Shown here piece by piece: positions 1-32,700 of a DNA stretch of 41,891 bases (its first letter is position 1; every line of letters starts with the position of its first letter). The translations under genes were made by a program, and so were the position numbers. The DNA lies in contig NW_001865042.1 in assembly GCF_000002865.3 (NCBI RefSeq), forward strand, positions 517,918 to 559,808, given 5' to 3'. The notes beneath the pieces were generated by a model. The model ran no database searches. It worked only from the letters and a program-made list of their open reading frames with translations, and was not told where the DNA came from. The DNA comes from Monosiga brevicollis MX1 (Eukaryota > Opisthokonta > Choanoflagellata > Craspedida > Salpingoecidae).

Positions 1-3000
1 CTGAGCTCTCTAATTCACCGGCCAGGTAAAATTTGATCTCCAACTGTGCTCCCCGAGTCCCACTGAGATCGACCTCCCGCGTAACCTTGGTTGAGCCTCC
101 ATAGAACTGCCGGGTCAATACGAGCGCGCCGTTGTAGATGAACACGTTACCAGAGGATGCACCACCATTGCCTGCATCGGTCTCAACCCAGGACGCAGCC
201 CAAGGCTTGCTTCCGTCGTTGTTGCTGTAACTGTTTTGTGAAAATGCGTCATGCACGGTTTGAGACACGCTGCAGGGTGTTGTCGTGGTCGTCGTGGTCG
301 TCGTGGTCGTCGTGGTCGTCGTGGTCGTCGTGGTCGTCGTGGTCGTCGTGGTCGTCGTTGAAGCACACGTTTGATATTCCACAGAGACTTGCTCGATCAT
401 TAGATATTCATCCGATGCATGTAAGTTTGCTTTGACACCAAAACCAACCCACACGTCTCTTTGACCCAGCAGTGCTGACAGGTCATACACGCGTTCCGTC
501 AAGCTCTTATAGTCTGTTGCCACAAACTCCTCCCCCACCATGGCACCGGACGCAGTCATGGCGCCAATGTACGCCACGTCAACATTCTCCACGTCACCAA
601 CAAACTTGAACGAAACGCGTAACGTTGCTGCAGACGCGTGCTCCAAAGAAATGGCGCGATAAACCTGGGTTTCACCGTATCCGTTACCACTACCCTTCAA
701 ATAGAGTTGCCCACCACTGATAAGCGCGTTTCCGCCTGCCGCACCGCTTCCGCCTGCATCTGCTTCGACCCAGTTGCTACCAAAAGCTATGCTTCCAGAG
801 TTGCCTGAATAGCCGCCAGATGCAAAGTTGTCGGCGTACTGTAGGTCTTGACACGACTGCTCACAGTCATCAAACGTGATCTTGACGTAATCGATAACAA
901 AGTACTCGCCTGGGCCCGCGAAGCCACTGTCAATGTACAGCTTCACGACGGTGTGGGATGATGCATATGCTGACAAATCATACGTCTTCGTGTTGTACGT
1001 GTTCTTGCCACAACGTGATGCTGTATACGAGTCCAACTTGTAGTGCGAGCCATCCTTAATAATCCATAGAGATGCCTCATCTGAGCTCTCTAATTCACCG
1101 GCCAGGTAAAATTTGATCTCCAACTGTGCTCCCCGAGTCCCACTGAGATCGACCTCCCGCGTAACCTTGGTTGAGCCTCCATAGAACTGCCGGGTCAATA
1201 CGAGCGCGCCGTTGTAGATGAACACGTTACCAGAGGATGCACCACCATTGCCTGCATCGGTCTCAACCCAGGACGCAGCCCAAGGCTTGCTTCCGTCGTT
1301 GTTGCTGTAACTGTTTTGTGAAAATGCGTCATGCACGGTTTGAGACACGCTGCAGGGTGTTGTCGTGGTCGTCGTGGTCGTCGTGGTCGTCGTGGTCGTC
1401 GTGGTCGTCGTTGAAGCACACGTTTGATATTCCACAGAGACTTGCTCGATCATTAGATATTCATCCGATGCATGTAAGTTTGCTTTGACACCAAAACCAA
1501 CCCACACGTCTCTTTGACCCAGCAGTGCTGACAGGTCATACACGCGTTCCGTCAAGCTCTTATAGTCTGTTGCCACAAACTCCTCCCCCACCATGGCACC
1601 GGACGCAGTCATGGCGCCAATGTACGCCACGTCAACATTCTCCACGTCACCAACAAACTTGAACGAAACGCGTAACGTTGCTGCAGACGCGTGCTCCAAA
1701 GAAATGGCGCGATAAACCTGGGTTTCACCGTATCCGTTACCACTACCCTTCAAATAGAGTTGCCCACCACTGATAAGCGCGTTTCCGCCTGCCGCACCGC
1801 TTCCGCCTGCATCTGCTTCGACCCAGTTGCTACCAAAAGCTATGCTTCCAGAGTTGCCTGAATAGCCGCCAGATGCAAAGTTGTCGGCGTACTGTAGGTC
1901 TTGACACGACTGCTCACAGTCATCAAACGTGATCTTGACGTAATCGATAACAAAGTACTCGCCTGGGCCCGCGAAGCCACTGTCAATGTACAGCTTAACG
2001 ACGGTGTGGGATGATGCATATGCTGACAAATCATACGTCTTCGTGTTGTACGTGTTCTTGCCACAACGTGATGCTGTATACGAGTCCAACTTGTAGTACG
2101 AGCCATCCTTAATAATCCATAGAGATGCCTCATCTGAGCTCTCTAATTCACCGGCCAAGTAAAATTTGATCTCCAACTGTGCTCCCCGAGTCCCACTGAG
2201 ATCGACCTCCCGCGTAACCTTGGTATGAGCCTCCATAGAACTGCTGGGTCAATACGAGCGCGCCGTTGTAGATGAACACGTTACCAGAGGATGCACCACC
2301 ATTGCCTGCATCGGTCTCAACCCAGGACGCAGCCCAAGGCTTGCTTCCGTCGTTGTTGCTGTAACTGTTTTGTGAAAATGCGTCATGCACGGTTTGAGAC
2401 ACGCTGCAGGGTGTTGTCGTGGTCGTCGTGGTCGTCGTGGTCGTCGTGGTCGTCGTGGTCGTCGTGGTCGTTGGTCGTCGTTGAAGCACACGTTTGATAT
2501 TCCACAGAGACTTGCTCGATCATTAGATATTCATCCGATGCATGTAAGTTTGCTTTGACACCAAAACCAACCCACACGTCTCTTTGACCCAGCAGTGCTG
2601 ACAGGTCATACACGCGTTCCGTCAAGCTCTTATAGTCTGTTGCCACAAACTCCTCCCCCACCATGGCACCGGACGCAGTCATGGCGCCAATGTACGCCAC
2701 GTCAACATTCTCCACGTCACCAACAAACTTGAACGAAACGCGTAACGTTGCTGCAGACGCGTGCTCCAAAGAAATGGCGCGATAAACCTGGGTTTCACCG
2801 TATCCGTTACCACTACCCTTCAAATAGAGTTGCCCACCACTGATAAGCGCGTTTCCGCCTGCCGCACCGCTTCCGCCTGCATCTGCTTCGACCCAGTTGC
2901 TACCAAAAGCTATGCTTCCAGAGTTGCCTGAATAGCCGCCAGATGCAAAGTTGTCGGCGTACTGTAGGTCTTGACACGACTGCTCACAGTCATCAAACGT

Positions 3001-3495
3001 GATCTTGACGTAATCGATAACAAAGTACTCGCCTGGGCCCGCGAAGCCACTGTCAATGTACAGCTTAACGACGGTGTGGGATGATGCATATGCTGACAAA
3101 TCATACGTCTTCGTGTTGTACGTGTTCTTGCCACAACGTGATGCTGTATACGAGTCCAACTTGTAGTACGAGCCATCCTTAATAATCCATAGAGATGCCT
3201 CATCTGAGCTCTCTAATTCACCGGCCAAGTAAAATTTGATCTCCAACTGTGCTCCCCGAGTCCCACTGAGATCGACCTCCCGCGTAACCTTGGTATAGCC
3301 GTTGTAAGACTGCTGGGTCAATACGAGCGCGCCGTTGTTGACAAACACGTTACCAGAGGATGCCCCGCCGTTGCCCGGGTCGGTCTCAACCCAGGACGCG
3401 GCCCAGGGCTTGCTGCCGTCGTTGTTGCTGTAACTATTTTGTGAAAACGCGTCATGCACCGATTGCGTACAATCCGACGTTCTTCTGATTCGCTC
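1..3495 (-). CDS. Tandem-repeat extracellular protein, partial, with two frame-breaking indels
   Basis: Each ~350-residue repeat unit has two related beta-rich domains. Domain A starts with VHDAFSQNSYSNNDGS and contains WVETD; domain B starts with DNFASGGYSGNSGS and contains WVEAD. Each unit ends in Cys-Ala-Ser plus a poly-Thr linker. The WVE-D/G-rich openings resemble secreted adhesin or carbohydrate-binding-like beta-sandwiches, but I cannot name the family. Reading from the right, domain A of the first unit follows an AG acceptor near 3496-3497 (first residues E-R-I-R-R-T-S-D-C). The frame is open to about 2477, where a 7-bp unit replaces a 9-bp one. A second indel (extra base near 2225) shifts it again. 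From about 2238 to base 1 the frame is open for ~745 codons without a stop. The indels could be real, making a pseudogene, or errors in a hard-to-assemble array. The C-terminus lies outside the window, and the 5' exon may be the signal-peptide ORF at 3665-4072. Confidence 0.6.
282..357. repeat. 9-bp minisatellite GTCGTGGTC, 8 units
   Basis: Eight perfect units of GTCGTGGTC plus a partial unit encode the Thr linker on the minus strand (ACC ACG ACG in frame). A 9-bp period preserves the reading frame whatever the copy number. The other five frames are also largely open here. Confidence 0.93.
1362..1411. repeat. 9-bp minisatellite GTCGTGGTC, 5 units
   Basis: Same linker array in the second large repeat, with five full units. 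The difference of three units from the first array accounts exactly for the 27-bp difference between the 1080- and 1053-bp periods. Confidence 0.93.
2416..2481. repeat. 9-bp minisatellite, 6 units plus one 7-bp defective unit
   Basis: Six GTCGTGGTC units are followed by GTTGGTC at 2470-2476, a unit missing two bases. This switches the minus-strand frame from poly-Thr to Asp-His-Asp and truncates the upstream reading frame. Confidence 0.92.
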
Positions 3496-8911: not shown

Positions 8912-11391
8912 TTAAAACTGGTCATAGTATGCAGAATCCTGCAGATGCCGTGGCATGCCCATTTGCTGGGATGTTAAAATGGCAGGTGCCACGGCGCTGT
9001 AGGAAACACGGCGACCGGAATGTGAGGACGGTGCGGCTGCTGCTTGGTGCGGCTTGGCATCAAAGTAGCCATCCGACTCCTCGCCAGCGGAAGGCGCAGG
9101 CTTGGCATCAAAGTAGCCATCCGACTCCTCGCCAGCGGAAGGCGCAGGCTTGGCATCAAAGTAGCCATCCGACTCCTCGCCTGCGGATGGCGCAGGCTTG
9201 GCATCAAAGTAGCCATCCGACTCCTCGGCTGGGGCCGGAGCTGTATCAAAGTAGCCGGCTGTCTCTTGTGAACCAGGCACAACGTCTTGGTAGAACCCGT
9301 CGGCAAGCTCGGGCCCCTGCCGGGACCTAGCTTCTTGATAAGTTGGGCCCCGAGGTGCCGGCGCTGTATCAAAGTAGCCATCCGATTCCACAGCCCCTGC
9401 CGACGGTGCTGGTGCTGTGTCAAAGTAGCCATCCGATTCAACGGCTCCCGCGTTTTGGGCCTTGACGGTCTTGGACAGCATGGGCTGAGAAACCGAATCC
9501 ATTCGTAGGTCCCGCCCGGCATCAATGTAGTCGCCCCCCTCGTCATCACCCGTGCCTGCCGTGTCGAAGTACTGGCCAAATTCAACTGCACCGGCGGTCT
9601 CAAAGTACTGGCCATCATCACCAGCCCGACGGGACCCTTGGCTATGCATACCAGCTGGACCGGCTTCTAAATAATGCCCGTCGGCACCGTCTGCACCCGA
9701 AGTGGTGAAGTATTGACCGCCATCGACTGGGCCAAAGGCTTGACCTTGATCGCCTGAAGTACTGTGCTGTTTCTGTGCACGTGCATAAGCCGAGTCTTGG
9801 ATTCGCCCACCGCCCGAATAAGCATTATTCAAATGAACACTTCGCGGAGGGGCTTCGTGGTGGTCAATGTCTTCCGATACATCGAGATAATCATCGCCAT
9901 CGACCACATTATCTTGCGCGCTGCCGGACCTCTGCAAAGGTAGAAAGCAAGCGAGAAACATGTGAGGCCAACAGCAAAGCCGAGCGTTTGAAGCACTCTG
10001 ATTCGTTCAGCAACAAACCTGTGTGGCGCCAGCGCCAGCGCCAGTCATGGGTAGATAGCCGCCTGTACTCTGGCGACCGGGTTGGTTCGCGTCTGCCATG
10101 TCCACGTAGCCGTCCGTTTGCTGTGCCCCGCCGACTTCAGAGTATGCGTTGCCCGGCATGCCAGCAGCAATTTCTGAATAGGCGTTGGTGGGCAAGGTAG
10201 CATCGTAACCGGGGTTCGCAGTTGGCTGTGAGCGAAATGGAGCGGTGGCCTCGGAGCCCACTCCCACGTAAGCCACGTTGGTGCGCATGAAGTTATCCTG
10301 GCCCGAGCCACGAGATGACGCTCCCTCAATGTGATTGTACCCGTCACCCTTGCTCAAAGCTAAGAATGTGTCAGAGAGGAAAAACAAATGAGAAACGACC
10401 GAGCAGGACGTGCAACCAAGCAACTAGCGCGTCATCATCTGGAGCCAGAAAGGGCGTACTGCTGCGTCGGCCGCTGATATGAGTATATTGCCCACTTTGA
10501 GACGACATCATGTGCTCGTTGTAGGCCGGGTTGGCCACGACGCTAGACGGTGCTATGGAGAAAAAAAATATAAATGTTCGGTCAATCGAACGTAGGCTTC
10601 ACGATCAAACACGTGCGCACGGGGATGAAATGAATGCTGTGGGACGGGATGAGTGCCATGAGGGGCGAGAGGAAAAGCGTACCCTGATGGCCCGGGTTTG
10701 TGGCGGCAAAAATCTTTGGCTGGCGGCGGCGGCAACAGGCGCAACACCGACACCCGTCGCAGCCATCACGGCAACAACAGCGCCAAATGCAGCAGAGGAT
10801 GATGAGAAAAGCGACAATGGAAGCCGCAATGATGATCCAGAGCAGGTTGTCCTGGATGGTATCGGAAACCTGGTCGCCTGTTGATTTATCCTGCTTGTTT
10901 GTGCCGGTTTCATCGTCATCGTTGTCCAGATCACTTGCATCTCCGCACTCGCGGTCGCTGCTCATGGAGGAATTCTTAATCGTAACTTTGTTCAAGTCTT
11001 GGCAATTAGTTAGGGCCTCACATTTGCCATTGTCCCAATTATTGTAGTAAGCACCAGTTTGGTACTCGCGACAATCTTTCAAGCAGGAATCAGACGTCGT
11101 CAAAAAGTACCAGTCCGGGACGCTGCTGGAGCTAAAGCGCGTGTCGCTACCCACGCGTGTTGGATACCGTTCTGCAGTCGGATAATTAATACAAGCATCG
11201 CAGGTGACCTCGTCAGAGCAGACGGCACAGCCTTCAGCACATTCATTGCAAAAGGAATTGACAGCTTGCTTCTCGCAGTACTGGCCAATTGAGCATTCGT
11301 CGTCGCTATCACAGGCCAAGAAGACGGGCAACAAGACCAGGCCAATCAGGACCCCAGCCCGTCGCATGGTGATGGGTCTTGAGCCACTCAA
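8912..11391 (-). CDS. Single-pass receptor-like docking protein with ~29-Tyr tail, no kinase
   Basis: Exons: 11391-10683, 10552-10460, 10359-10019, 9931-8912, giving 720 aa (712 if the Met at 11367 is used, which puts the signal peptide first). Phases 1,1,0 close. Residues 9-26 are a signal peptide. Residues 27-150 are a Cys-rich ectodomain with closely spaced cysteines (CNECAEGCAVCSDEVTC), followed by an acidic stalk. Residues 183-203 are the membrane span (LLWIIIAASIVAFLIIL). Residues 200-220 hold 11 cysteines, likely palmitoylated. The tail has no kinase or other catalytic domain but about 29 tyrosines. Two are NPxY (NPAY, NPGY: PTB-type), two are YxxM (YVDM, YLPM: PI3-kinase p85 SH2-type), and many follow D-G-Y-F-D or G-Q-Y-F. 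A 16-residue ESDGYFDAKPAP-type repeat lies near the C-terminus. It looks like a phosphotyrosine assembly platform; binding and phosphorylation are inference. I know no named orthologue. Confidence 0.85.
9051..9233. repeat. 48-bp coding repeat, ~4 copies
   Basis: Period 48 bp (copies begin near 9051, 9099, 9147, 9195), encoding a 16-residue unit with core ESDGYFDAKPAP on the minus strand. Copies are nearly identical, so the tyrosine motif was amplified recently. More diverged relatives (DGYFDTAPAP, AGYFDTAPAP) lie at 9235-9440. Confidence 0.93.
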
Positions 11392-12464
11392 TCGTTAAGA
11401 CACGCGACCGTGGCTAAAGGTGAGCGCACGCTTGCTTGTGTGATATGAGGCCAGCACGCTGCTGCATTTGGAAACCAATATGCCGACGGCTCGCCTTCAG
11501 GAGCGCGGCGGAGATTGGGCAGAGCTGTAGCTCAAGGTCTCAAACGGAGCCGGATGGTGCTCCTTTCCCGACTGTTGCAAGTTTGAACACACCTGCAAAC
11601 ACACAAACACCTTTGAGTCAAAAGCCAAACAGCATGGAGAAGGCGCGAGGTACAACACGAGTGCACAAGAGTCTATCATTCCACAGCTCCCGCGTCTGAC
11701 CGCCGTTTGCCACAGACACACACACACACACACAGACAAGGAGAGAGGAGAGGAGGTCACCGCCAACCGCTGCACTTGACCAACCTCCCAAGCCTTTTTC
11801 CCGCTTATGGGTCAAAAGGGAGAAATGAACATACATGACAGAGAGAAACAAAAGAAAAGGAACAAAATAAAACCAAAAAAAACAAAAAAGATCAAGGAAT
11901 GACATTGTCATGGAGCCAATAGCACCCACAACGTGTTGACATGCTTGACGCTTGGCCAGCTGCCAGAGTTGGGGGGGATGCAAGGGGTGGCAAAGGGGCT
12001 CGAGCTCCGAGATCGGTAGGCAAACAACATGTTGTCAACTCCACACCAAACCTAAGTAAAGTGTAGCACTTGTCAGACCACTCGTGTTGGTTGCGAGGAC
12101 ATGAGCCCCACACGAGGAGGAGAGAATGGCGGTTTGTCACTGGCTTCGTCAACTGCGTTCGAATGGTAGCATTGTCAGCATTTTCAGGTCAATCGGGGGT
12201 TTTCACACACACACAGCGACGTACGGCACGACAACAAGACCCAGAAAGGCCTCCCGTCGAGGGTCGGAGGTTGACGCCGACACCGGGCTCGGACTAGAAG
12301 CAACTGCTTGGGTTATTAACCTGCTTGAGCTGTTTCTTTAGACTTCTGAGAAGGCTTGGCTTGTCTTTTCATGGACTGAAGGCAATCGTCTCGGCGCGAA
12401 GGGCGGCAGCTCAAGCCGCACATACCGACCATCAGGCACCAACTGGCTGCTTGCGTGTCCGAGA
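11392..12464. promoter_or_regulatory. Shared divergent upstream region
   Basis: This 1.07-kb stretch separates the starts of two head-to-head genes: the minus-strand docking protein and the plus-strand PDZ-WW protein. It contains a CA microsatellite (about 11714-11734), an A-rich stretch at 11840-11895 and no recognisable gene. I see no obvious TATA box. A bidirectional promoter is inferred from arrangement only. Confidence 0.45.
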
Positions 12465-15400
12465 ATGTCGCGGCTGCCGCGCACCATCACACTCGAGCCT
12501 GCCAAGCAAGGGCTGCAGTTTAGCATTCGCGGTGGCGCCGAACATGGGTTGCCCATCATCATCTCCAACGTCGACGTGGGCAGTGAGGCTGCACGCTTGG
12601 GCCTGCGCATAGGCTGCGAAATCCTTTCCGTCAACGGCGTTTCCTTTCGAAATATCGAGCACAGCGTCGCCGTTGCCCAACTCACAACAGAACCCACGCT
12701 TCGCATCACCTTTCGATCCAATCCTCTCATTGAACGTGCGTCGAATTAAATGCCCATCCCACTGTCTTGTTGAATTTTGTTTTGTTTGGCTTTGGCACTA
12801 CCTTTCTGCTCGCGCTCAGGCGCGGTCGAGCTGCACCCCTGCTGGTGAACAGCATCTTGCTTGCAACTGAACCACACCCGCCCCCCCCCTGCCTGTGCTT
12901 TTACACAGGTGCTTTCACAGGTCAAGGCCCGGATTGTGAACCCGATCTTGCTGTGGACGCACTGATTCCACCGCTAACTGCCTTGCCACATCCTCACTCT
13001 GAATCCTCGGTGAGCGTACAAGAGCAACCCGGGCCAGAGGATGACGCAGCTATCCGTTCCACCGTTATTCAGCCCACGCACATGGCTTTGCCCCCTGCTG
13101 CCGCTGCATTGGGTACGGAGAGTGTGCACCTCGATTTGCACGGTGGCCATGACGGAGATGACGCCTTTGATACATCAGGGGCTGGTTCCTTTGTCGAGAT
13201 TGACGAACCTAGCGACGCAGAAACCTTGTCATTGGCGAGCCTCTCCTCCTACGCCAGCACTGCTGCCACAGGCTGGTTTGCTGCCAATAAGCAAAACCAG
13301 TCGAGCGACGGCATCGAAGAGCGCCTCCGATCCCTCTTTCGCACACCCACGCGCCGTGCCTCTGAAGTTATCGTGCCCGCACACCCAGGCAGCCCCCGAA
13401 CACCCGCGATAACACCACCCCGATTTTCTTTTCCCGCCCAAACCCCACACCCGTCTGGCAACAGCTCTGCGGCCACAAAGACAGATAAACCGGCCTTTGA
13501 TCAGCGGCGCATGGAGGCTCGCCTCCGTAGTCTTTCTCATCTGGCCAGCACGCCCTCAACTCGCACCCGTGAGCTTGCCCGCCGACCACAGCCGTTCACT
13601 GCTCCAATACACACGCTGCACAATGAAGCAGACGATCGCGACCTGGCGCCTGGCTGGACGAGTCACGTGGATTCGCGCACGAACAGAATCTTTTACGCCA
13701 AGTAAGCCTGCGTTGGACCACGCAACGTGCACAACGCATGTGAATCACTTGCCATTCTGACCGCCCAACCCCGCCCATGCCCCTCCTGTTTTACCAGCGC
13801 GGCAACACGGCAGACGACCTGGATCAAACCCGGTCGCCGGCAAGGCATACCCAGTGATCCGCAACTCGTAGACTGGCGAGGTATGATGTGCACTCTTGCT
13901 CTTCACACCATCCCCCCGCACGCATGCACACACACACATATACGCGCGCGTGTGCGCCACTTCCATTGACCCGCCTCGTCACTTGACTTGTGTAGCCTTA
14001 CCACATGGATGGGACATCGCGACCCACAAAAACGGAGAACCTTACTACATAAAGTTTGTCTTAAAGCACCTGCCGAGGCTAGCCTTGCCCACCAGCACCT
14101 GCGTGGCTGCACAGCCCGCCCCAGCCTCCGTTTCACTTGGTTTGTTCCTTGGTCTTTCGCAACTCAATCGTGCTGCAGTCACCTCGAACGCTGCAATACT
14201 TGGCATCACCCGCGCTGTGGCCGAGAGCAACGTTTACTCGAGCAAGTGACACAACAGCTAAATGAACACAGCCTCAAGCTCCGAGTATGTATCAAGTCGC
14301 CCTGATGCGTGCGAGAGGGTGGCGCGTCATTGGGCCAGGCTGCGTGCTCCCTTGATGTGTACATGGCCTTTTTGGAATAGGAGCAAGAGGGTGTTTTGCA
14401 AAGCCGAAGGGCCGATGCAACAGAGATTCAACAACGTTTGAATCGCATGCAAGAGCGACGAGCGGCTCTGAGCATGACACTCGCCCAGACTGAGGGTCAA
14501 TCCGAAGTTGAGGCTCGTTTAGAAGGCCAGCTTGAAATGCTTTCGGAGCAGGTTAGCCCACCCAAAGCCACAGTGGTCTCAACACGACGTGTCGCTGATG
14601 CAAATTTCCAAATTCTTGTCATCGCGCCTAGATATCCGATGTGATTACCGCTCAGAAGAGCGCTGCTGAAGTTGTTGAAGCGCAGACACAAATTGTGCGT
14701 CGGCGAAGAGAGCGCATCGAAGCTGTGGCCGACGTTCTCAGCCAATGTCAACAGCGCAGTGCTAAAGTGCCTGAGGTGAGGCACGGTGGCGCCATTCCAA
14801 AAGCCCCACCGGGCTCGATTCGTGCACTTTGGTGCACTCTCACTGAGTGGATCTGTAGATCGACCGCTCCCGCCACGCAGCTAGCACTGGCATGCACTTG
14901 CTGCGCCGGCTCAAGGCGGATTTCGACACGGCCGTGCAAGAATTGGCAGCCCTTGTCGGTACGCCGTCACGCCCATTGTTGGTCAGGGGAGTGCAGGCGA
15001 GCCGAACAACGTTGACTTGAAGGACCCATGACCTTCCATGTGTTAGATGCAGTTCTGGAGCAGGCTGGTGTGGCCGAACCATTCGGTGAACAGAGCCTGA
15101 TGGAGCTCGAGCGGCATCGCGACCGTGAATGGCTGGTGCATGTCGACGCAGAGCAAAACTTGCGCAGCGACCTGGAGATGCAACTGATTTCACTAACGGT
15201 AGAGCTTGAGCTGGCCCCCAAGGTATGATTGTTGATCTTGAAGCTAAGAACATGCCCCGCGCCAATGCCCTCGCGTCGAGTCACTCGCCACATGCAAGTT
15301 GCGCTCATTCGGTGCTCTGCCCTATTGATCAAAACAACAGTTGCGACTGGCCTTGAGTGAGTTGGAGCAGCTGCGTCGGCAGGAAATGCTCCGCTCGAGC

Positions 15401-20705: not shown

Positions 20706-23700
20706 CTAACTGTCCAAGCTCATCAGCAGTGCGGTGCCACGCTTGACCCAGTGTTCAGGGGGCAGATCACCGGTCTTGAGGTCCACCGAAATGACAAAGG
20801 ACCATGCAGACGCACCGCCTTCGCCCGTGCGGTTGGGATAGTAATAGCAGGGACAAGCATAGCTGCCTTTCTTGGCGACCTTCTTGTTCTCAACGGGTTT
20901 GAAGTGGATCGTGGGCATGCTGCTGACCAGCTGCATGGCCTCCGCCTCCACAAGGCAAGCATTGCGCTTATCCCACCCCGCACCCTCGAGGAAGAGTCCA
21001 CGCACGTAGACACCGTCCCTCGGCTCCTCCACAATGTTGACGTCATCGACGGTCATGACCGAAAACTCCCATGAGAGCGTGTCGATTGACACGCCGTTGG
21101 AGCGCGCCGCTTGCTGCAGCACAGCCGTGAGAAAGCCCGTCGGGAAGCTAAAGGCCGACATCCAGAAGATAAGGGGCTGGCGACCCGTGACTGCCCACTG
21201 CGTCAGAAATTCAATCCGCTCCACCAAGTCGCGCATCCACGAGGCCAACGGCTTTTGGGACGGGTACGTTGCTTTCCAAGCTACCGGCACCTCGCCCTGA
21301 TAGATGCACTCGAAAATCTGCTCCAGCTCGTGACTCATCACCACCAGTCCCTGGATACCGTGATCGAGGTCGACCAGGTTGACGCGCATCGCCTCCAGCA
21401 ATCGGTTGTATCGCTGGATCTCCTGCAGCAACACAATGTTCAACGGACGCGGATCAGCCGCCAAGAGCTTGGCCGTCGCCTCGTAATCGATGGTCTTGGG
21501 TAGCCGCGCCAGCATGTCCCGCGCCAGCTCCAAAACCTTGTCCTCCCGACTACCACCCTCTTTGGCGCTGACGGCTGGCTGCATGGACACCAGCGTGCCC
21601 AGCAACGTGCGGGCTTCCCGGATCATGCTTGAGATATCCGCGTTGGCATTTTGCCCAAAAGCGGTGGGGGGGTCCACGCCTGGCAGCGTGTTGATGTAAT
21701 CCTTGTATGACTGCAATGGGCCATCTGGAGGCACAAAGTAGAGCGGGCTGGCCGACACCGGGCACGCCTCCACCTGCAACACCTGATCACTGAACAGCTC
21801 GTTAATGTAGGTCAGCAAGAGGCGTCGATCCCAGTCATCTGTCACGTGGCCACCGTAGTTGATGCCCGCAATCAGGTACTTGAGTGACTCCCACGGTGTC
21901 TCCTCATACTCGTCCAGGAAGAGCGCCAGCAGGTTCTCCGAAACCTCAAAGTCCGAGTCGTTGAAGGGGTATTGCACGTTCCAGCCCAGCATTTGGAACT
22001 TGCGACGCTCGAGCAAGATGCTGTGGAAAAAGGTCAGGGAAAACATCAGTTTCTTGTACTTGGACGAAGCGTTGCAGCGCTCAAACTGCTCCTCGCTGAT
22101 GGTGTTGTACAGCCGCTTCATGTTCGCCTTGATACCATTTGGTGGTTCCGTTGTCATCTTGATACCCGCCTGCAAAATCGAAATCGGGAAGCGCGGGTCC
22201 GGCTTGGAGCTGAGCCACAGCCGAAAGTCGGGGTGCGGCTGCTGTGACTCCAGCAGCTCCACCAGCTTACTCAGGGAGGGCATCCAGCTCAAGGAGAGGT
22301 GACAATTCGCCAGGAACACCCAGTCACCACGCGAAGCACCCTCGGCAATGAGGCGCTCCGCAATTGGTGCCTGCCCTTGACCGAGAGACAGGCTGTGAAA
22401 GCGGTCGCTCATACCGGAGCGTTCAGCAAGATCCAGCAGCTGCTTCGTCGGATCCACGCCCACAGATAGAACAAAGATGAGTGGCGTCATGGCATTGGAA
22501 TCCGCCAACACGGCGTTCATGTCAAGTGGTGGTGGCTCCACGAAGCGCTGGCCCAGGTTGTTGACAATGTACTGGATGGCAACAATTGCCACGCGGTCCG
22601 GGCGCAGCGCCCGCACAATGCACATGCGCTGCAGCTCATTGCAGGTGGCCTGCCATTCCCCTGGCAGTGGCGCCGTCTCCGGTTCGGGATGCACATACCA
22701 CGCCTGCCAGTCGCGCAGCTGCTGCTCAAACGAAGCCGTCAGTCCTGCAAACTTGGGTAGCAGCCGCTCCATTTCCGTCACGTTGTCCCAAGCCTCTGAA
22801 GTAATCCAGCCGGGCGCGGGGTTGGGCACCTGCGCGTCGCGATCGAGCACCTGACCGCCGCGTAGAAAGAAGTTGTACTCGCCCAAGGCAATCTTGTTCT
22901 GGCTCTCCAAGATCTTGGCATTCATGTGCAGCGCAAAGAGTAGTTTGTGCTTCTCAAACAGACCTCGGCAGGTGTAACGGTACACCGCATAGTTGTGATA
23001 CTCGTTGATGCTCTCGATGCGCTGGTCGAGCGCTGGCGCCTTGGCGCTGTTGTCGATGCTGAGCGTGTACAGATTGATGTAAGCATCGAGCGAAAATTGG
23101 TACATAGGGTCAATCTTGGACACATCATCAAGCACAAAGAAGAGCACCGACGCTCGTGACGCGGACGGACGGTAACCCTCACGTGCCGCATCAATCTCTT
23201 TCTCCGTTGCTTCCGCCACCACAAGTTGCTCCGACACCTCCACCGAGGTGACCTTGGAGGTGTTCAGCGTGTTGACCAGCTCCTCGTCGTCCAGAAGCGA
23301 GCCCTTGGCCGAGCTCAGAAGCTGCAGGATCTTATCTTCCAAGTCCACCAGCTTCTTCTTGCCCGCGGCAATGTTCAGAACGAGCTCATTCTTTTGCTTT
23401 TCCAGCTCCGGGCGCTCCTTGGACACGACAATGCCGAGCAGCTGCGCCTCCAAGCCCTGTTGGACGACCGCAAAGTTGACGATCGTGGTCTTGGTCGAGA
23501 TCTCGGGAGTGTAGTGAGGGTTGCTCATCTTGGTCGTCAAGTAGAAGCGAAAGTCTGGATTGTACTCAATCTCCTTATCCCCGAGCTTGAGCATCAAGCG
23601 CCCGCCCACCTTGGTAAAGGCTTTGTTCAGCACGGGGGCCAAGGATGGGTCCAGCTCCTCGCCCACATTCTGCATCAGCACCGGCGTACCAAACTGGATG

Positions 23701-26700
23701 GCGTTTTCGAGCGTGCGAATGTAGTCAGGTTGTTGCATGTCCACCACCTGCAGCTTGCGGTCGCGCTCCATGTTTTTGATCCATTTGATGGCCTGTCCCT
23801 GAGGGTCAATCATCAGTGGCCAGCGCCGGCCGCGTGTCACAATCACACCGTTCTCCGTGCTGAATTGGTCGGACGGCAGGCCTTGAATGTTCCAGAAGCG
23901 CACGTCTGTTGCCTTCGCCAACAGAGTTGTCATGCTGAAATCGGGATCGGAAGGGATGTTGTTGTCCCGAATGTGGCGCCGCCACTGCTCGACAATGCGA
24001 GCACGGTACTCGCTGATAAAGGGACCCAGGTATGAGAGAAAGCCAGCACACATGAGGCAATCACCCACCAAGAATTTGATGCCGCGTCGCAGCTCGCCAA
24101 CGCTCTGCTCCCAGCGCGAGCGCTCGCCGGCCAAGCCCGACACCAGTTTGGCGGCACGCTCAAGCTTGATCTCTGTCTGTTCACTCTTGATGCGCAGCTC
24201 TTCCTTGGTCTGAAGCTTGCTCTCGTAATCAGACTGCAGCTTGGCCACCTTCTCCGTCACCTCGCGCAGCTTGGCCTCGGCCTCTGCCAACGAGTCTTCC
24301 TTGGCCTTGAGGGCCGTTTGCGCCGCTTGCAAGGCCTGGCGCTTGGGTTCCACGACCTTGAAGATGCGGCCATATACATCCATGGCCCGAACCCACATGC
24401 AGAGCGAGCGTGCCGCATTCGAAACGCGACCCACCACATCTGGATCAAACTCTGGGCGCACAACGTAGGTGCGTACCTTTTTCAGCGTCTTCTCAGACAT
24501 GTTGTCCTTGTCAAACTCAATCAGTTGGTTGATAAAATTGGTGTCACCCAGTTGACGCTTGGCTTCCGCCCAGTCTGGCTTGGATTTGCGCAAAACCATG
24601 ACAGCCTCCATGACCATGGCCACGAGATCGGGCGGCTTGCTGTACGACTTGATCTCCGTGATGTCGCCCTTATTAAGCGAGTTGAGTGCCTCCATAGCGC
24701 TCTCCAGAGCCGGCAGGGCCTCGTCAAGGTCGGCCTGCGCATCCGAAGCCAACTTCTGACACTGTTTGGCCTCCACGCTAATCTTCTCGCTGCGCTGGGA
24801 CACGGCCATCTGCTGATCGTCGGCCTCGCGCTTCTGCTGTACAATGATGACGAGGTACTCCTCACACTCGCGCTGAAACTCGGCCACTTGCTTCTTCGTC
24901 TCAACCAGCTCGATGGACATTTGCTCTACCTTGGCACTTGTCTCGTCAATCTTGCCCAAGCCATTGGCAAGCTTGTCGGCAGCATCGCCCAGCTCGCGGC
25001 GCTTCTCCGCCAGGAGCTGCTTGTAGCCCATGACGAGCTCGAGGTAGTTGGTTGGTGTCACATAGTTGTGTCGCTTGAGTTCCTCCAGCATCTGGGCCGA
25101 AGAGCTCAGGACCGACTGCTGAATAACGGCAAAGGTGGATGAGACGGCCTTGCGGACGGCCTCGCCGTCCTCCCCAGTGCCAAAGTCCACATCGTGCATG
25201 TATCGGTGTGCCACGGCGAGTAGGGCATCTTCGGGCCATGCATGAAAGTAGTCGATGGTGGTACAGTTGACAAGGCCGGGGTACATGCGCAGGCGGTTGC
25301 GGAAAGCCTCGCCGACGGGGCTCATGCACAGGACAACGCGCAGGTTGTTGCGAACACGGCTGATGAAATACTTGTACAGGCCCACCGGCGACTCGTCAAG
25401 ACCTTGCTTGCGCGCCAGCGGTGCCAGCTCATTGCGAATTTCCTCCAACTCATCCGGTGCAAACAAGTTGGGAACCTCGCCGGAACTCAAAATGTTGTTG
25501 ATATCCTCCAAAAAGTCTTCAATGACAATTTGTGTGTCAGTAAAGAGGAAGACTGTCGGCTTGTTCTCAAGACCGGCTTGTCGATACAGCGTCTTGAGGT
25601 CCTCGCGAAATTCGTTGATGCGGTACTGCCGCGTGACCTCAATTTGGAACACCTTAAACTCGAGCACGTACGAGGCGAGGCGCGTGAGCGACTGCCGCCC
25701 AGACCCACCGACACCAATGAGCAGCATGTTGCCACGCTCACACCGCACGACACGGACGACACGGCACACGTGTTCAATGGCATCACGGAACAGAACCAGG
25801 TCCATGGGAACAAAGCCCGATTCATTGTACTCGTCCAAACGCTCCTGCAGCACGCGTCGCAGCACTTGGGGATCGCGCACATCCTCGTACACGGGATTGT
25901 CTTCGGCTTTCAGAAAGTCCGCAAAGACGGGCACCACGCGATTGGGGCAAAGGGTCGAGTAGGAGATGTTGAAAAGCTCGTGCAGCTTGTCCTCAATAAG
26001 CTTGGTGAATTCAGCCACGTCCGAAGAGCTGATGAGGCGATCGCAGAAGACGCGAAAGCACTCGTGCACCCACAGGCGCGACAGCGCATCGGTGGTGTCG
26101 TGTACGTCCTTGTGAGCGCGCAAAAGACCCTGGAAAACCTTGGAAATATCGCGCAAGTTGAAGAGGTAGTGGATTTTGGCCGGCGTAGGCAGCATGCGCG
26201 TAGACATGTACTCATAAACGTCAATGGTGCCATTGGTCACCATGTCACCCACCGGCTTGCACGCCTCATCAAAATCCTGTAGCTTTTGGTTGATCATGGT
26301 TCCAAAGATGCGTTGAATCTGCGACCGGCTGGGAAAGGTCATGTTGATGACGTTAAAGCGGCTCTGAAGGCGCCGGCTGATGACAGAGCGGCCGCCCCCG
26401 GGCGGACCCATGGCCGCCACGACTCGCATGTCCTTGATGTGTTTCAACACCTGTTTCTGCCGGTCGTACATGAACCCGTACTCCATGAGCTGGCGCAGCA
26501 ATTCAAGCGGGGGCTGGCTTCCAAAAGTATCCTTGGCCGGCATGTTCAGGTCGTCCAGGAAGGTGAGCAACTGCTTGCCCCCAAGGGGCACAAACACACC
26601 CTTGGTACGCTTCTCCACCTGGCCCTCAATGATCTCTTGCACGTTGTTTGAGCTGGTTTGCGAGGACATGTTGATGGTTAGGCGATTAAACTGCGCTGCA

Positions 26701-29700
26701 TCGAGCTTGGCCATGACAAGCTCGACCACCGAAGTCTTGCCCGTTCCAACTGGACCCACCATCAACGTCGGGCGCTGATGTGCAATCAAGTTGGACAGCA
26801 GAAACTCGTAGCGCACTGTGTCCACCGTGGGCACTTGAATTGAGTGATAACTTGCATCAGGGGCGTACTTCCACCCCGCCGAAAGCTCCTTCTCCCAATG
26901 AGCCCAAGTGTGATTCTTCACGTCCACAAAGTACTCGTACACGGTGTCCTTGGCTGGGAATTGACCCTCAATCTCACGGATGAAATTGTCAACCAACTTG
27001 CGACCTGCCTCGTTCACGCCCGCGCAAAGGGACCACACACAAGCAAAGAGGAACCACTGTTCCAGAAGACGCGCAAAGTGGGCCTTGTCCGCGGGGTCGA
27101 TGCCATTCTCGGGCACCAAAAAGGCGTCGAGCAGGTTGCACAGGGACGTCACCCGACTCAGGAGGGAGGTTTCCACGAGTTCTTCGCATTTGTGGCGAAC
27201 AAAATCAAGAAGGCGTTCGACATACTTCTCGAAAAGGGCCTGCAGCGGGCCGCGATAGGCTTCAAAGCGCGGATTACTGAGCCACGAAGTGACATAGGGT
27301 TGCCAGCCGAGGTCAGCCGTGTCGTGGTACACCATGCCGCAACGTGACACGGTTGCCGGCGACGCAACGGCCAGATCCTCAACCTCAAAGAGCAGCGAAA
27401 CTTGCGCCGGCATGGAAATGCGATCACCGTTGATGAGGGTCAGGATCTTGTTGTCGTCCATGACCGAATTCATGCTCTCAATCCACAGCGTATCAACGGG
27501 ACCATCAAACACAATCCACTTCTGATCTGGCTTCTCATCGGAGCAGACGTTGCGCATCACCGAGGAGAGCACGCCATCCGTCCACTCGTTGGTGGCAATG
27601 TTGAACTCGCCATACAGCTCAGCCAAGGAAAGCGCCTTGGGATTGAGCGGGTACTCCCGCACAGGTACAAAGCCCTCCACGTTGTCGCGTGCACACTGCG
27701 TCATTGCACGCTGCAGCGTGTGCCAAGCAACACTCTTGCCTGAGCCAGTGCGCCCGACAATCATGACGGAGTGGCGCGAGTTTTTCGTCTCAAAGAGCTG
27801 AATGGCTTTGGTGATCATCCAGGGGGTGGCTTGATAGCCCTGCTTGACCAGATCCGCCTTGATGGCCTCGCGGAAGGCTCCATACTCCACCTCCATCGTC
27901 TCCACGCCTGGGAAGAGGTCGGACATCATGTGTTGGAGCAGAGGCAGGTCAGCGCCCGTCATCTTGGCCACGTTCATGTCCTTCATGGCAAGCAGCAGCA
28001 CCTCCTCATGCGGCATTTCGGGCATCGCCTCACGCTTGCGTCCAGCATACAACAGAGTTGAGACCATGGCGCGAAGACCATAGTCATAGTGGTCTTGCTT
28101 GGACAGCTGCTGAGCTGCAAGCTTGTACAGAGTGTCAGCCTTCTTGGCGAGCACGCGCGTGTTGTTGAAACCCTGGCCAAAGAGGATGATCTCGGCGATA
28201 AGTTGCGTGTCTGGCTTCATCATGGAGATTGGACGGAACATGGACTTGAGGTTATCTGGCAACTCGGTGCGCCCGGCATAGCCAGGGTTCATGGTGATGA
28301 AGATGCCGCAAGACCAAAGCAGGTTGATGTCCATGCCCTCGAACGTGAAGCGTGTCTTCGGGTTCTCTGGCGAGAGCGGAATCTGAGCCGAGAGGATGGA
28401 GAGGATCTGCTGGGCCACGACGGAAAGCACTTCGATGTTGATGCGGTTGAACTCATCAAAACAACCCCAGGCGCCAGTCTGTGCTAGACCGCGGAACATG
28501 ACGCCAAGCGACTTGTAGTCCATGCCGTCAGAGCAGTTAATGACAATGACGTAATCACCCAGTGACTTGCCAAGATCCTTGACCGTCTCCGTCTTGCCGG
28601 TACCAGCTGGACCCTTGGGCGAGCCACCGCGCTTCAAGTGCAAGGCCGTCGTCAGGGTCATGTAGCAGCGGTCCGTCAAAGGCGTAATGACCAGGCGGCC
28701 GCTGTTGCCGGAATACTCGTACCCATAGCTGAAATGGGTGTTGGTTTGGCGGATGATGCACTCCCCCTCGCTGGGACCGGTTTCAGGCTTTTCCCAGTAA
28801 AACCGCAGCTGCATCAGCCACTCAAACGCATTTTGGTCGATGTTCGCCACTTTCAAGAGGCGATCGATAACGTCGCGGGAATGCACTTCGATGGTGATGA
28901 GTGCCACAAGCTTTTTGCGTTGCGTCTTGTTCTTGACGGCTCGCACAGCCTCAGTCAGCTTGTTGAGGAGTGAGACCTGCTTCTTCTTGATAGCTTTCAG
29001 GCCAGCTTTGGCCCCGTGTTTCTTGTCAGAGATGGCCTTGAAGCACTCAGATGTCCAAGCCATTTGACTCACAGTGAGAACAAGCTGGCCGGGCCATTCC
29101 TTAAGCCACTTGTCGCGCTTTTGCTTTCGATGCGCGACCATGCATTCCTGAAGCAGCTGCTTAAGAGTGTGCCGCATCTCTGTCTCCACAGAGGTCAGCC
29201 AGACCTCAACTGGCCCATCCAGGGCAACAGCGGTCTTAAACGGCACGTACTCTGCATCTGCAGAGGTCATGCCCAGCGCTTGAACCTGGCTGCGCCCAAC
29301 GGCATTGTGCAACTCCAGACTCTTGACATTGTCAAAGCATTTCAGCAAGTGCGGCTGCACGGCAGGCGGATTTTTGGACTGCCCAAGAATCTCGAGAAGG
29401 TCATCATTGGATACAAAATAGAAGCGAGGAAAGGCTTGACGCTTGGTCTCGAGATATTCATCCAGTGACTTTTGAATTTGCTCGAGTACGCCATTCATGG
29501 CGACAAGCTGTGCGAGCAAGCCGTCGCGGTGGGTCGCGCGACAAGCGTGGCAGTCCTTGTGCAGGTGCACACCAATATCCTTAAACTGGGCATCCATGAG
29601 GTCAAATTGCTTGGTTTCTTCGGGCAGTTGCTGCCGAATGTCCTCGCCAAGGAAGATGTTCTCCAAGTAGATCCACTGACGCTGCACGGTCAGCAACATG

Positions 29701-32700
29701 TCCACCACCTCCAAAACCGTTCCCAAGGTCTTCTCCCAGCGGTCCACGTCTGCCTCAAACGCCTTGACAAAAGGACTGGCCTTCATGGTGGCCAACTTGA
29801 TCTGATCATCTTCGAGCAGCTGGTAAATGTCGTCCGTTCCCTTGAGAATGAAGTGGCCACGTTCCTTGTGGGCCGCTGCCTCGAGCTCAACCGTGGCCCA
29901 CACCTCGGTGATGCCGGCCAATGTTTGCTCGATGCTCAGTTCCTTGCTAGCAGCCCGCGAGATGTCGCCCACTTCTTCGTTGAAGCGGTCAAAGCCGAGC
30001 TCGATCATGCGGCCAAGGGTAAACTCTTCTGACGTATGGCTGAAGTTCTCGCCGACGTGGCCTTGAAGGCGGCTCCAGTGGCGCTCACGGAGCGCTGGAT
30101 TCTTCAGATCCTCAATGAGAGGCATGGTGCGTCGGAATTGATCGATTTTGTTGCGATAGGCGGCGGTCATTTCCCAGTCCTTGTCCTTAACCTCACGCAA
30201 CATTTTGAGAAGCCGTTTGTTGAAGCTGGTCGCAGTTTGCGCGAGATCGTCCGTAACAATGTCAGCAAACTGTGTGTCTCGCCAAGAGATGAAATTGTTG
30301 TCCCACTCCTCCGCCAGACGCCAGAGCTGCTCAAGGTGGCCCAAATCTTTGACCGTGTCCAAGATCTCCTGAAATGGCTCTTGAGTGATGTCAAAGACTT
30401 GCAGGCCATTCTTCAAGGCTTGCTCCGCCTGGCGCGTCGTCTCCACCTTGGCCTTGAAGGTATCAATGGCCTTGAGGGCCTGTTCGGGTGTGAGGGATCC
30501 CGAGGTCGGGCCATCCTCGAGGAACTGGGAGCGCAACCCGGCAGCGTTGCGCGCGAGCTCGTCCAAGGATGCCAAGAGGCCTGACTTGCATTCGGATTTG
30601 GCCTCCTCGATGAGAGCAGCGCCCTCGCGGAGGGCGTCGTTGAACGAGGTCCAGGCGGCAGCCAGGTTGAGGTGAGACTGCTCCACCTGAGCACTTATGC
30701 TGACATCATACTTGTGAAGAATCTCAAATCGCTCCTTGAGTGGAGCAAAGCGCTGTTGAGTTGACTCACGGCGCTTACGAGCCTCGTCGTACAGGGCGAC
30801 GGACGCAATGACGGCATCGAGGCCCTCGGGGCGCTGGCGCAGCAAGCGGGCCTGTTCCTCGAGATAGGCGTGCAGATCAGCCAACTCCTGCACCGTTTGA
30901 TCATGTAGAACCTGGCTCAATCGGGTCTGCCATTCCTTGCAATGGTCCAAGAGAGCAAACTTGAGCAACGACGTGTCCAGGTGCAGAAACTGTAGGATAA
31001 CGAAAGTCTCCTCCTTCTGCACGTTGTGAGAGACCTCCCCATACCGGGCAATGTCGCCATCAAACTTGGCCAGGGAAGGCTGCATCTCGATGTATCGCTC
31101 AATGAAGCGTGCTTTATCGGTAGCCCAGATTTCGTAATAACGGTCACGCCAGCCCTGCGCAAAGGCCTCGGCCTCTGGGCGGCACTTGTCCATATCCCGC
31201 GCAATACGGTCCAAGAGCACGCGAACATCGCGGTCGGCGCGGGCAGCAGCCTCGTAGGATGGCAGATCCTTGACCTCACGCTGGCTCACGGCCGCCAACA
31301 GCCGCGGGATGACCACGAGACCAGCCATGATGCGATCGGCAACGGTGTTGACCAAGCGATAGGTGAAATCGAAGCTCGGCTGGAGAAGGAGCGAAGAAGA
31401 TGCATCATCCAAAAGGACGCCGACCTTGAAAAGAGGCGCATTGAGCGTCTTGCCGTCACCATGCAAAGCTCGATTAAGCTCGCTGAGAGAGCGACGCGCC
31501 ACGGTCACCAGAGCATTTTGAAGCCGCTCATCAATGCCGGCCACGTACAGCTTCCAGGCCGATTGCACGGCGCTGGGGTCACCACTAAAATCCTTGTAAG
31601 TAGCCCGCAAGGCTGCCACGATCTTTTGGTGAATGGTGCCCAGTCGGCTGAGAACGCGTGCCACGTAGCGCTCCTGTTGTTGCGCAAACTCCGTGGGCTC
31701 GTACATGGTCTTGGCATCGTAGACGAAAAGAGATCGCTGAGCGGCCGTGTCGCACAAAGCGCGCACGTAGGCCTTAGAAGCGAGGTAGTTGTCAACTTGC
31801 TTGCGCACGGTCGCAGCATTGGCGCGCACCGTGTTCACGTACTCCTTGATGAACTTGGCCTTGTCCCAAGTTAACTTTGTCAAGCCGTTGTGCACCTTGT
31901 TGTCAAGCAGCTGAATGCGTCGGCTGAAAAGCTGCTGCTCGTCGTCCGCCAAAAGATCGTAGATGCGGTTGTAGTCTCGCACCACCAGCATGGTCATGTC
32001 ACGTAGACAGCGCAGCTCCTCCGATCGATGGAAAATATCCCGCGCCGGTGCTGGAATGCTCATGCCCAACTTGTCAAAGTACTGGATCTCGCGAAAGAGA
32101 CGCTCGAGGGAAGGATCAAAGTTGAGGGCGAGTCGACGATCAGGGCGGCGCTTCATGAGACTGATTTCCAGCAGTGCCTTGAGGTCGGTGCCTAGTTGCG
32201 CGACCCAAGCGGCATGGGTCTTGTTGGCAAAGTCTGCAAGTGCATTGCTGAGCAATGAATGGCTATGCAGCACTTCGTTGCTAAAGGTCGCCTCGTCACC
32301 GCGGTGGCCCGCATCGGACGTGGCATGCAGCTGACGCGAAGTCAGCAGTTGCTGAGATTGATCGATGTTGGTGCGCAGCGCCAGCGCCCACATGCAAGCA
32401 CCAGCATACTTGGGCATCGTGGGTCCTACTGGAGGCGCGTCGCGCTGCTTGGAGAAGACTTGCTTGACATGCTCGAGCTCGTCGTTGAAACGCTTAAAAA
32501 CGCTGTCCGTGTGGCGGTTCAGCGCTCGGCGCAGCGTCTCTCGAGCTCGCAAAGGTGCAAAGATGGTCAGGAGCTCGACACCCTGCTCCACTGAGGTGGC
32601 TGTCTCAAATGCAGTGCCGATGATGCCCTGCATGAGCACTTCCAGCTCCTTCAGCGAGGCCTTGAACTGGACAAACTCGTGCTGAAACTTGTTGGACTTG

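Follow-up and report, generated by a model that had tools for sequence, protein, structure and literature searches.

What use might a unicellular organism have for a membrane protein whose tail is full of tyrosines and which carries no kinase domain? The question is raised by a gene in a 41,891-nucleotide stretch of the genome of the choanoflagellate Monosiga brevicollis MX1 (contig NW_001865042.1, positions 517,918 to 559,808). Below, the whole of this stretch is called the window, and its numbering is used for all coordinates not assigned to another locus. We consider it probable, judging from the sequence, that this gene encodes a kinase-less membrane receptor or co-receptor that serves as a multivalent phosphotyrosine docking platform. 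Such a platform is the best reading because the tyrosines of the tail stand in non-random contexts, the predicted topology is right and the genome is rich in SH2 domains, PTB domains and kinases.

The gene and its predicted product

In our independently rebuilt model the gene consists of four exons on the minus strand, from 11367 to 8912, with 712 codons; all of its features given below lie on that strand. Like a first-pass annotation of the same DNA, it has three introns; they are 130, 100 and 87 bp long, all GT-AG, with phases 1/1/0 that fit at the junctions. The boundary at 8912 was also correct, as it is the end of the stop codon (8912-8914). The protein length of 720 residues and the boundary at 11391 had to be revised, since the start codon is at 11367 and 11368-11391 is 5' flank. 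Retention of a single intron would bring in a stop at residue 262, 289 or 377, depending on the intron kept. Exon 1 (10683..11367) encodes the signal peptide, Cys-rich ectodomain, membrane span and Cys cluster, and exon 2 (10460..10552), which ends at the same donor, GTACGC, as is used by intron 1, encodes the first NPxY motif. The second NPxY, a YSEI/YSEV pair, YVDMADAN and YLPM are in exon 3 (10019..10359), while exon 4 (8912..9931) holds the repetitive Y-x-[D/E] part of the tail and the stop codon. Among the repeat units of the tail, which are not independent of each other, 272 of 551 differences fall in third codon positions, an excess that supports coding in this frame. A crude codon score gives little coding support, because it is positive for exon 3 only and about zero for the other three exons. 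No RNA family reached its gathering threshold within the window.

The protein starts with a predicted signal peptide (residues 1-18, 11314..11367), recognized by its hydrophobic N-terminus. It is followed by an ectodomain of about 155 residues (19-172, 10852..11313), whose 14 cysteines all lie within residues 19-141, and by a membrane span at about residues 174-194 (10786..10848; best 19-residue hydropathy mean 3.1). At and just past the inner end of the span, 11 cysteines accompanied by six arginines form a basic juxtamembrane cluster (residues 192-212, 10732..10794), a candidate site for palmitoylation or metal binding. Acidic residues flank the span on its outer side (DDDETGTNKQDKSTGDQVSDTIQD) and basic ones on its inner side (WRCCCRDGCDGCRCCACCRRRQPKIF), and the tail is therefore predicted to be cytosolic; the signal peptide and topology calls were made from hydropathy and charge only. 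In our reading, the product is a type I membrane protein whose long tail is cytosolic and which has no enzyme domain. A Pfam scan of all 712 residues gave no family at cut-off, and no kinase, PH or PTB domain. The best match of residues 1-215 in a sequence search of the PDB (EstA, E 0.066) is not meaningful, and AlphaFold2, run on the single ectodomain sequence, gave a mean pLDDT of 36. The small Cys-rich ectodomain, single span, cluster of 11 cysteines and enzyme-free tail of some 480 residues with about 29 tyrosines, all described in the first-pass annotation, were thus borne out.

Tyrosine contexts in the tail

The tail begins at residue 226 and has 487 residues, among them 29 of the 36 tyrosines of the protein, 44 Asp, 24 Glu, 8 Lys and neither Cys nor Trp; it is rich in Ala, Gly, Ser, Asp and Pro. 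Motif counts were compared with those in 5000 shuffles of this same tail. An acidic residue stands at +2 of 19 of the 29 tyrosines (shuffle mean 3.9) and Phe at +1 of 10 (shuffle mean 0.97), and none of the shuffles reaches either value. Twenty-one tyrosines have an acidic residue somewhere at +1 to +3, which a single shuffle reaches. Acidic residues at -3 to -1 (15 tyrosines; 249 shuffles) are weakly enriched. The rule of the tail is Y-x-[D/E], and it is seen in the forms YFD, YFE, YVD, YLD, YID, YSE, YLE, YQD, YQE, YNE and YYD. The acidic DGYF[D/E] sites to which the first reading had drawn attention are there in six copies. Elsewhere in the genome this motif occurs at six places, two without an open frame of at least 40 residues and four within one (in one case in an acidic tract); none of these four lies in a comparable-looking tail.

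Two NPxY motifs, which had been noted as PTB-type sites, sit in the third of the tail that is closest to the membrane: NPAY at residues 236-239 (Tyr 239, 10521..10532) and NPGY at residues 308-311 (Tyr 311, 10205..10216). Their number is above chance (shuffle mean 0.06; 14 of the 5000 shuffles reach it), and so are the ten occurrences of Yxx[ILVM] (shuffle mean 2.95; three shuffles). Removal of two near-identical 16-residue repeats, which leaves 27 tyrosines, did not alter the enrichment verdict for any motif. The two kinds of site are spread unevenly along the tail. Seven of the nine tyrosines in exons 2 and 3 fit Yxx[ILVM] and four fit Y-x-[D/E]; in exon 4 the corresponding numbers are three and 15 of 20, with eight YFD[T/A].

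How unusual is such a density of tyrosines? As a rough yardstick, not a null, we used 38 coding-like segments (20,884 residues) from the loci at hand, a non-random sample biased towards kinase genes. One overlapping pair (L015, L018) was kept, and eight loci were excluded because they copied the target or overlapped others. Frames scoring below 0.05 on the crude codon measure were dropped, and the Tyr-rich tail of a Hedgling-like gene, described below, is missing from the top windows. Tyrosine makes up 2.57% of this background, and five or more tyrosines occur in five of its 70 low-hydrophobic 100-residue windows, all of them in kinase tails (L003, L008). Each of the nine 100-residue windows of the target tail holds five to seven.

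Two more specific signals suggested by the motifs fared less well. The p85-type reading of the YxxM sites (Tyr 344 and 361) was not upheld, because two such sites are not clearly above chance in a tail of this composition (shuffle mean 0.64; 670 shuffles) and no p85 inter-SH2 domain reached its cut-off in the genome (best 23.5 bits against 31.5, in an exon-by-exon search that a split domain could escape). Weak inter-SH2 matches of this kind mean nothing, since 8 of 14 control genomes give them too; a p85 reader was accordingly rejected. The immunoreceptor tyrosine-based activation motif (ITAM) has the consensus Yxx[IL]-x6-8-Yxx[IL]. This strict form is absent from the tail; a form relaxed to Val, YSEI-x8-YSEV, occurs once (residues 320-335, 10133..10180), which is weak, as 133 of the shuffles also have one.

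Two motifs link the tail to other genes. YVDMADANQP (residues 344-353, 10079..10108) contains YVxMxDA[N/H], for which an exact DNA pattern search, which misses intron-split copies, found four places in the genome, of which one is here and the other three lie in a second membrane gene (L014, see below), with none for the reversed control. DDYLDV (residues 386-391, 9878..9895) fits DDYxDV, a pattern found at two places, here and in the C-terminal tail of a kinase with a PTB domain (L008), with one hit for the control; on its own this second pattern is weak. That kinase tail (L008:2449-2997, G000:C40) carries GQYF, DDYVDV, LYLDV, SYIEL, SYMQI and NPLF, in a style close to that of the sites considered here.

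A possible partner kinase and the rival explanations

If the tail is a docking platform, which enzymes would write on it and which domains would read it? The genome searched (39.5 Mb in 57 contigs) agrees at 100% with an 89-residue stretch of the solved RTKC8 kinase of M. brevicollis (PDB 8e4t; PMC10263333), and is therefore treated as that of this species. It gave at least 169 matches to PF07714, a model for Tyr and Ser-Thr kinases, not all of them tyrosine kinases, as well as 114 SH2 and 15 PTB matches; a rich repertoire, such as the first-pass annotation had noted for choanoflagellates, is thus present in this species. One kinase-model match (G000:C7:86555-87166) lies inside an open frame reported as 29,192 residues long. 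The PTB number is a lower bound, since a review counts 31 PTB domains in this species (PMC3507883). Of the 15 PTB matches, seven precede a kinase match on the same strand by no more than 2 kb. The three such loci that were read out (L004, L008, L028) have an HMD catalytic loop, the feature that names the HMTK family. PTB domains occur in 10 of 15 HMTKs (PMC3082566), and all fifteen are reported to be conserved in Salpingoeca rosetta (PMC4054682). The third PTB domain of HMTK1 was shown to bind an NPVpY peptide, and the Km for an attached acidic tyrosine site is about 15-fold lower with the phosphotyrosine (33 versus 450 uM); a pYEEI peptide was also recognized and favoured (PMC3082566). Searching the genome for natural HMTK1 substrates with their best peptides, the authors named partial matches only, namely RTKB8 and two SH2 proteins, one of them a cadherin-SH2 membrane protein, and the study ends with no confirmed natural target (PMC3082566). 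An isolated disordered tyrosine repeat from the tail of RTKB2, a kinase of the same organism, was phosphorylated in vitro and then bound the SH2 domain of MbSrc1 (PMC3584944).

A membrane-near NPxY followed by many acidic tyrosines is what a PTB-tethered HMTK would need, and the following sequence of events can be suggested. A ligand would cluster the ectodomain, or the Cys-rich juxtamembrane region would hold the protein in a lipid domain. The NPxY would then be phosphorylated by a receptor tyrosine kinase (RTK), a Src-type kinase or an HMTK, and would bind the PTB domain of an HMTK. The tethered HMTK would phosphorylate the many acidic sites of the tail, on which SH2 proteins would assemble, the repeats supplying many copies of one docking site. 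The protein would thus supply the receptor part of a tyrosine-kinase receptor made of two proteins. Recruitment of an HMTK to these NPxY motifs is a tentative part of the scheme, one that we hold with a little less than even confidence.

Several observations weigh against the scheme or parts of it. The ectodomain, in a protein search of its own genome at E up to 1, matches only itself, and no RTK. A part of the tail is a recent tandem duplication, identified by Tandem Repeats Finder as an array of 3.7 copies, with 98% match, of a 48-bp unit that encodes DGYFDAKPAPSAGEES (9051..9227). Only 7 of the 15 PTB matches are found beside a kinase match, and two of those seven kinase matches (C37, C56:1125534) come only from a weaker list. 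The likenesses in YVxM and DDYxDV had been spotted by eye ahead of the pattern searches, and the second of these gave one control hit; since both had been seen beforehand, only the absence of the motifs elsewhere is new information. The ligand tested with HMTK1 was NFTNPVpYATLG and not a peptide with NPAY or NPGY (PMC3082566); of our two motifs, only NPAY is preceded by a hydrophobic residue at -5 (Val), the residue there in NPGY being Thr. That ligand required prior phosphorylation, which would call for a priming kinase. The tested acceptor tyrosine was N-terminal of the NPxY, while nearly all sites of our tail are C-terminal of it; moreover, HMTK1 showed no activity in mammalian cells, and the binding of some array peptides did not depend on phosphorylation (PMC3082566). 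As for the RTKB2 tail, its phosphorylation in mammalian cells was only weak, and a complex with MbSrc1 was not observed there (PMC3584944).

The same tyrosines could also serve, or fail to serve, in other ways. In an endocytic or sorting receptor, NPxY and YxxPhi motifs would be used unphosphorylated as sites for clathrin adaptors, and cargo would be carried by the Cys-rich ectodomain. Both motifs are above chance, and the tyrosines of exons 2 and 3 in particular look suitable: most are Yxx[ILVM], several as GYxxPhi (GYNHI, GYVDM, GGYLPM), a form that occurs in lysosomal signals. In known cargo receptors, however, one or two sorting signals suffice, and we know of no preference of AP-2 for an acidic residue at +2 or for YFD[T/A], the contexts that prevail in exon 4 over its three Yxx[ILVM]; the 20 tyrosines of that exon would be left unexplained. 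We find sorting an improbable account of the protein, and the membrane-near half of the tail could do both docking and sorting. Somewhat less probable still is that tandem duplication has produced a low-complexity tail in which the tyrosines have no function. The 48-bp array and the Ala/Gly/Ser/Asp/Pro-rich composition would fit this, as would the surplus of nonsynonymous over synonymous codon differences among the repeat units (202 versus 104), but drift of this kind does not agree with the third-position excess among the same units. Nor does it agree with the acidic residue at +2 of four of the nine tyrosines outside exon 4, besides 15 of the 20 inside it, or with exons 2 and 3, which hold both NPxY motifs and YVDMADAN, the latter with a pattern that is shared with the L014 gene and that the exact DNA search found nowhere else in the genome.

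Two further alternatives concern the gene model and the topology, and we give little credence to either. Were the ectodomain and tail parts of two genes or of two isoforms, the weak donor of intron 2 (four of nine consensus positions) and the codon scores near zero in exons 1, 2 and 4 would be natural; yet introns 1 and 2 share their donor GTACGC, the phases agree across each of the three junctions, and the span, its basic anchor and the first NPxY follow each other in order across the junction of exons 1 and 2, so that we think such an error quite unlikely. A reversed topology, with the acidic tyrosines extracellular and sulfated, is the most far-fetched of these explanations. DGYFD and DDYLD resemble contexts of tyrosine sulfation. 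Sulfation is disfavoured because it requires the reverse orientation, whereas the signal-peptide-like start, the Cys-rich N-terminal side and the charges flanking the only span (acidic outside, strongly basic inside) place the tail inside.

Returning to the docking platform, what would it mean if correct? Known writers (tyrosine kinases) and readers (SH2 and PTB domains) are many in Monosiga and confirmed substrates few, and a receptor that lacks a kinase and offers about 30 ordered sites is a concrete candidate for a substrate. The division between receptor and kinase, familiar from immune receptors, would have arisen in a unicellular relative of animals too, the tether there being a PTB domain and not an SH2 domain. 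A more general suggestion is speculative and rather doubtful: that choanoflagellates possess a class of two-part tyrosine-kinase receptors, Hedgling included, in which NPx[Y/F] motifs of kinase-less membrane proteins recruit PTB-tethered HMTKs and the tails are runs of one receptor-specific docking motif, each calling one set of SH2 readers. If true, a counterpart of antigen-receptor and cytokine-receptor signalling would have arisen independently before the animals, and the HMTK family would gain its missing upstream partners.

Known systems, related genes and the rest of the window

Kinase-less membrane docking proteins are already known in animals. LAT, NTAL and PAG have a single span, membrane-near cysteines and an enzyme-free tail with many tyrosines, and the Monosiga protein resembles them in all of these, its 11 cysteines being candidates for palmitoylation. 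LAT-type adaptors have a very short extracellular part of a few residues, palmitoylated membrane-near cysteines, multiple phosphorylated tail tyrosines and a YxN grammar; the protein considered here differs in its ectodomain of about 155 residues with 14 cysteines, its membrane-near NPxY and its Y-x-[D/E] grammar. No relationship to LAT, NTAL or PAG was found in the Pfam and PDB searches, the only comparisons made. The substrate domain of p130Cas, IRS, FRS2 and Gab also offer many docking tyrosines with no enzyme, and p130Cas repeats one motif, but these proteins are cytosolic and are brought to membranes by SH3, PH or PTB domains. Unlike them and Dok, our protein has no Pfam match to SH3, PH or PTB, and unlike RTKs it has none to a kinase. 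The earlier comparison with a LAT/NTAL-like or IRS/FRS2-like platform holds for the kinase-less docking tail at the membrane, as a likeness only, given the Cys-rich ectodomain of about 155 residues and the lack of PH and PTB matches. What is likely to be new is the combination of a membrane-near NPxY, runs of one motif, a unicellular organism and candidate PTB-kinase partners. Among the literature matches listed, no title or abstract dealt with this protein or with Tyr-rich kinase-less choanoflagellate tails; the founding papers on Monosiga phosphotyrosine signalling (Manning 2008, Pincus 2008) are outside this scope.

The first-pass annotation could name no comparable platform. The protein is not isolated, however, since two other membrane genes of the same genome share parts of its design. 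A protein search of its own genome returned, besides the gene itself, three weak matches (E 2e-4, 0.003 and 0.04), two of them informative; the third (L015, E 0.04) was judged by eye to be a chance match. Residues 220-366 of the tail, at E up to 10, found only their own gene.

One of the two genes is Hedgling-like (L013/L016; L016:1136-7391, G000:C28:223135-229390). It has VWA, cadherin and EGF domains, a set that fits the description of Hedgling (PMC4054682), and an HH_signal match below the Pfam cut-off (20.0 against 22.1 bits). Its span is followed by an intron with the donor GTAAGT and then by a kinase-less tail of 459 residues that ends in a stop. Like the tail in the window, this one is Tyr-rich and free of Trp (32 Tyr, 23 YD), and it has five NPx[Y/F] motifs (NPTF, NPFY, NPMY, which is made by splicing, NPGY and NPGY). 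Unlike the window protein, it belongs to a large ectodomain and follows a YD[S/T]A grammar (14 copies), with Y-x-[D/E] at two of its 32 tyrosines. The frame of this tail had no Pfam match at E 0.01 and, in its own genome at E up to 0.01, matched only itself. In the accessible portions of the literature on Hedgling we have not seen a kinase-less Tyr-rich tail described. A gene converging on the Hedgling-like gene (L016:8588-9364) encodes an SH2 domain (PF00017, 38 bits); this nearness of platform and reader may be due to chance.

The other is the L014 gene (L014/L017, G000:C45; L017:4114-7777), which likewise has one span, as judged by eye, a cysteine cluster (CCCCGRCGRC) and an NPx[Y/F]-type site, NPLF. 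It shares YVxMxDA[N/H] through three copies of YVTM[E/D]DA[N/H] (EEEYVTMEDANRP-type sites). It differs in having few tyrosines, six in the pieces of tail read, and in what lies downstream: an SH2 domain and a sub-threshold SAM-like match, whose frames could be connected by plausible introns. These probably, but not certainly, belong to the same gene. If so, the L014 product would be a membrane-anchored SH2 adaptor with docking sites of its own.

Repeated acidic tyrosine sites are also found, in the same organism, in the tail of RTKB2 with its six RM2 repeats. RTKB2 differs in having its own kinase domain, and the RM2 units are about 80 residues long and reported in RTKB proteins only (PMC3584944).

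The remaining observations concern the surroundings of the gene. Its divergent neighbour on the plus strand (12342-12749) has a PDZ domain (PF00595, 40 bits). The C-terminus of the tyrosine-rich protein is D-Q-F, an end that would presumably fit a class III PDZ ligand. A minus-strand frame at 2383-3495 contains two MAM- or jelly-roll-like repeats, seen by eye, and a DHD run, with no Pfam match at cut-off. At 20706-34319 an uninterrupted minus-strand frame of 4196 residues resembles, by eye, a dynein heavy chain, and the frame just upstream contains a DHC_N1 match. Finally, 9-bp arrays of GTCGTGGTC are found at 282, 1362 and 2416.

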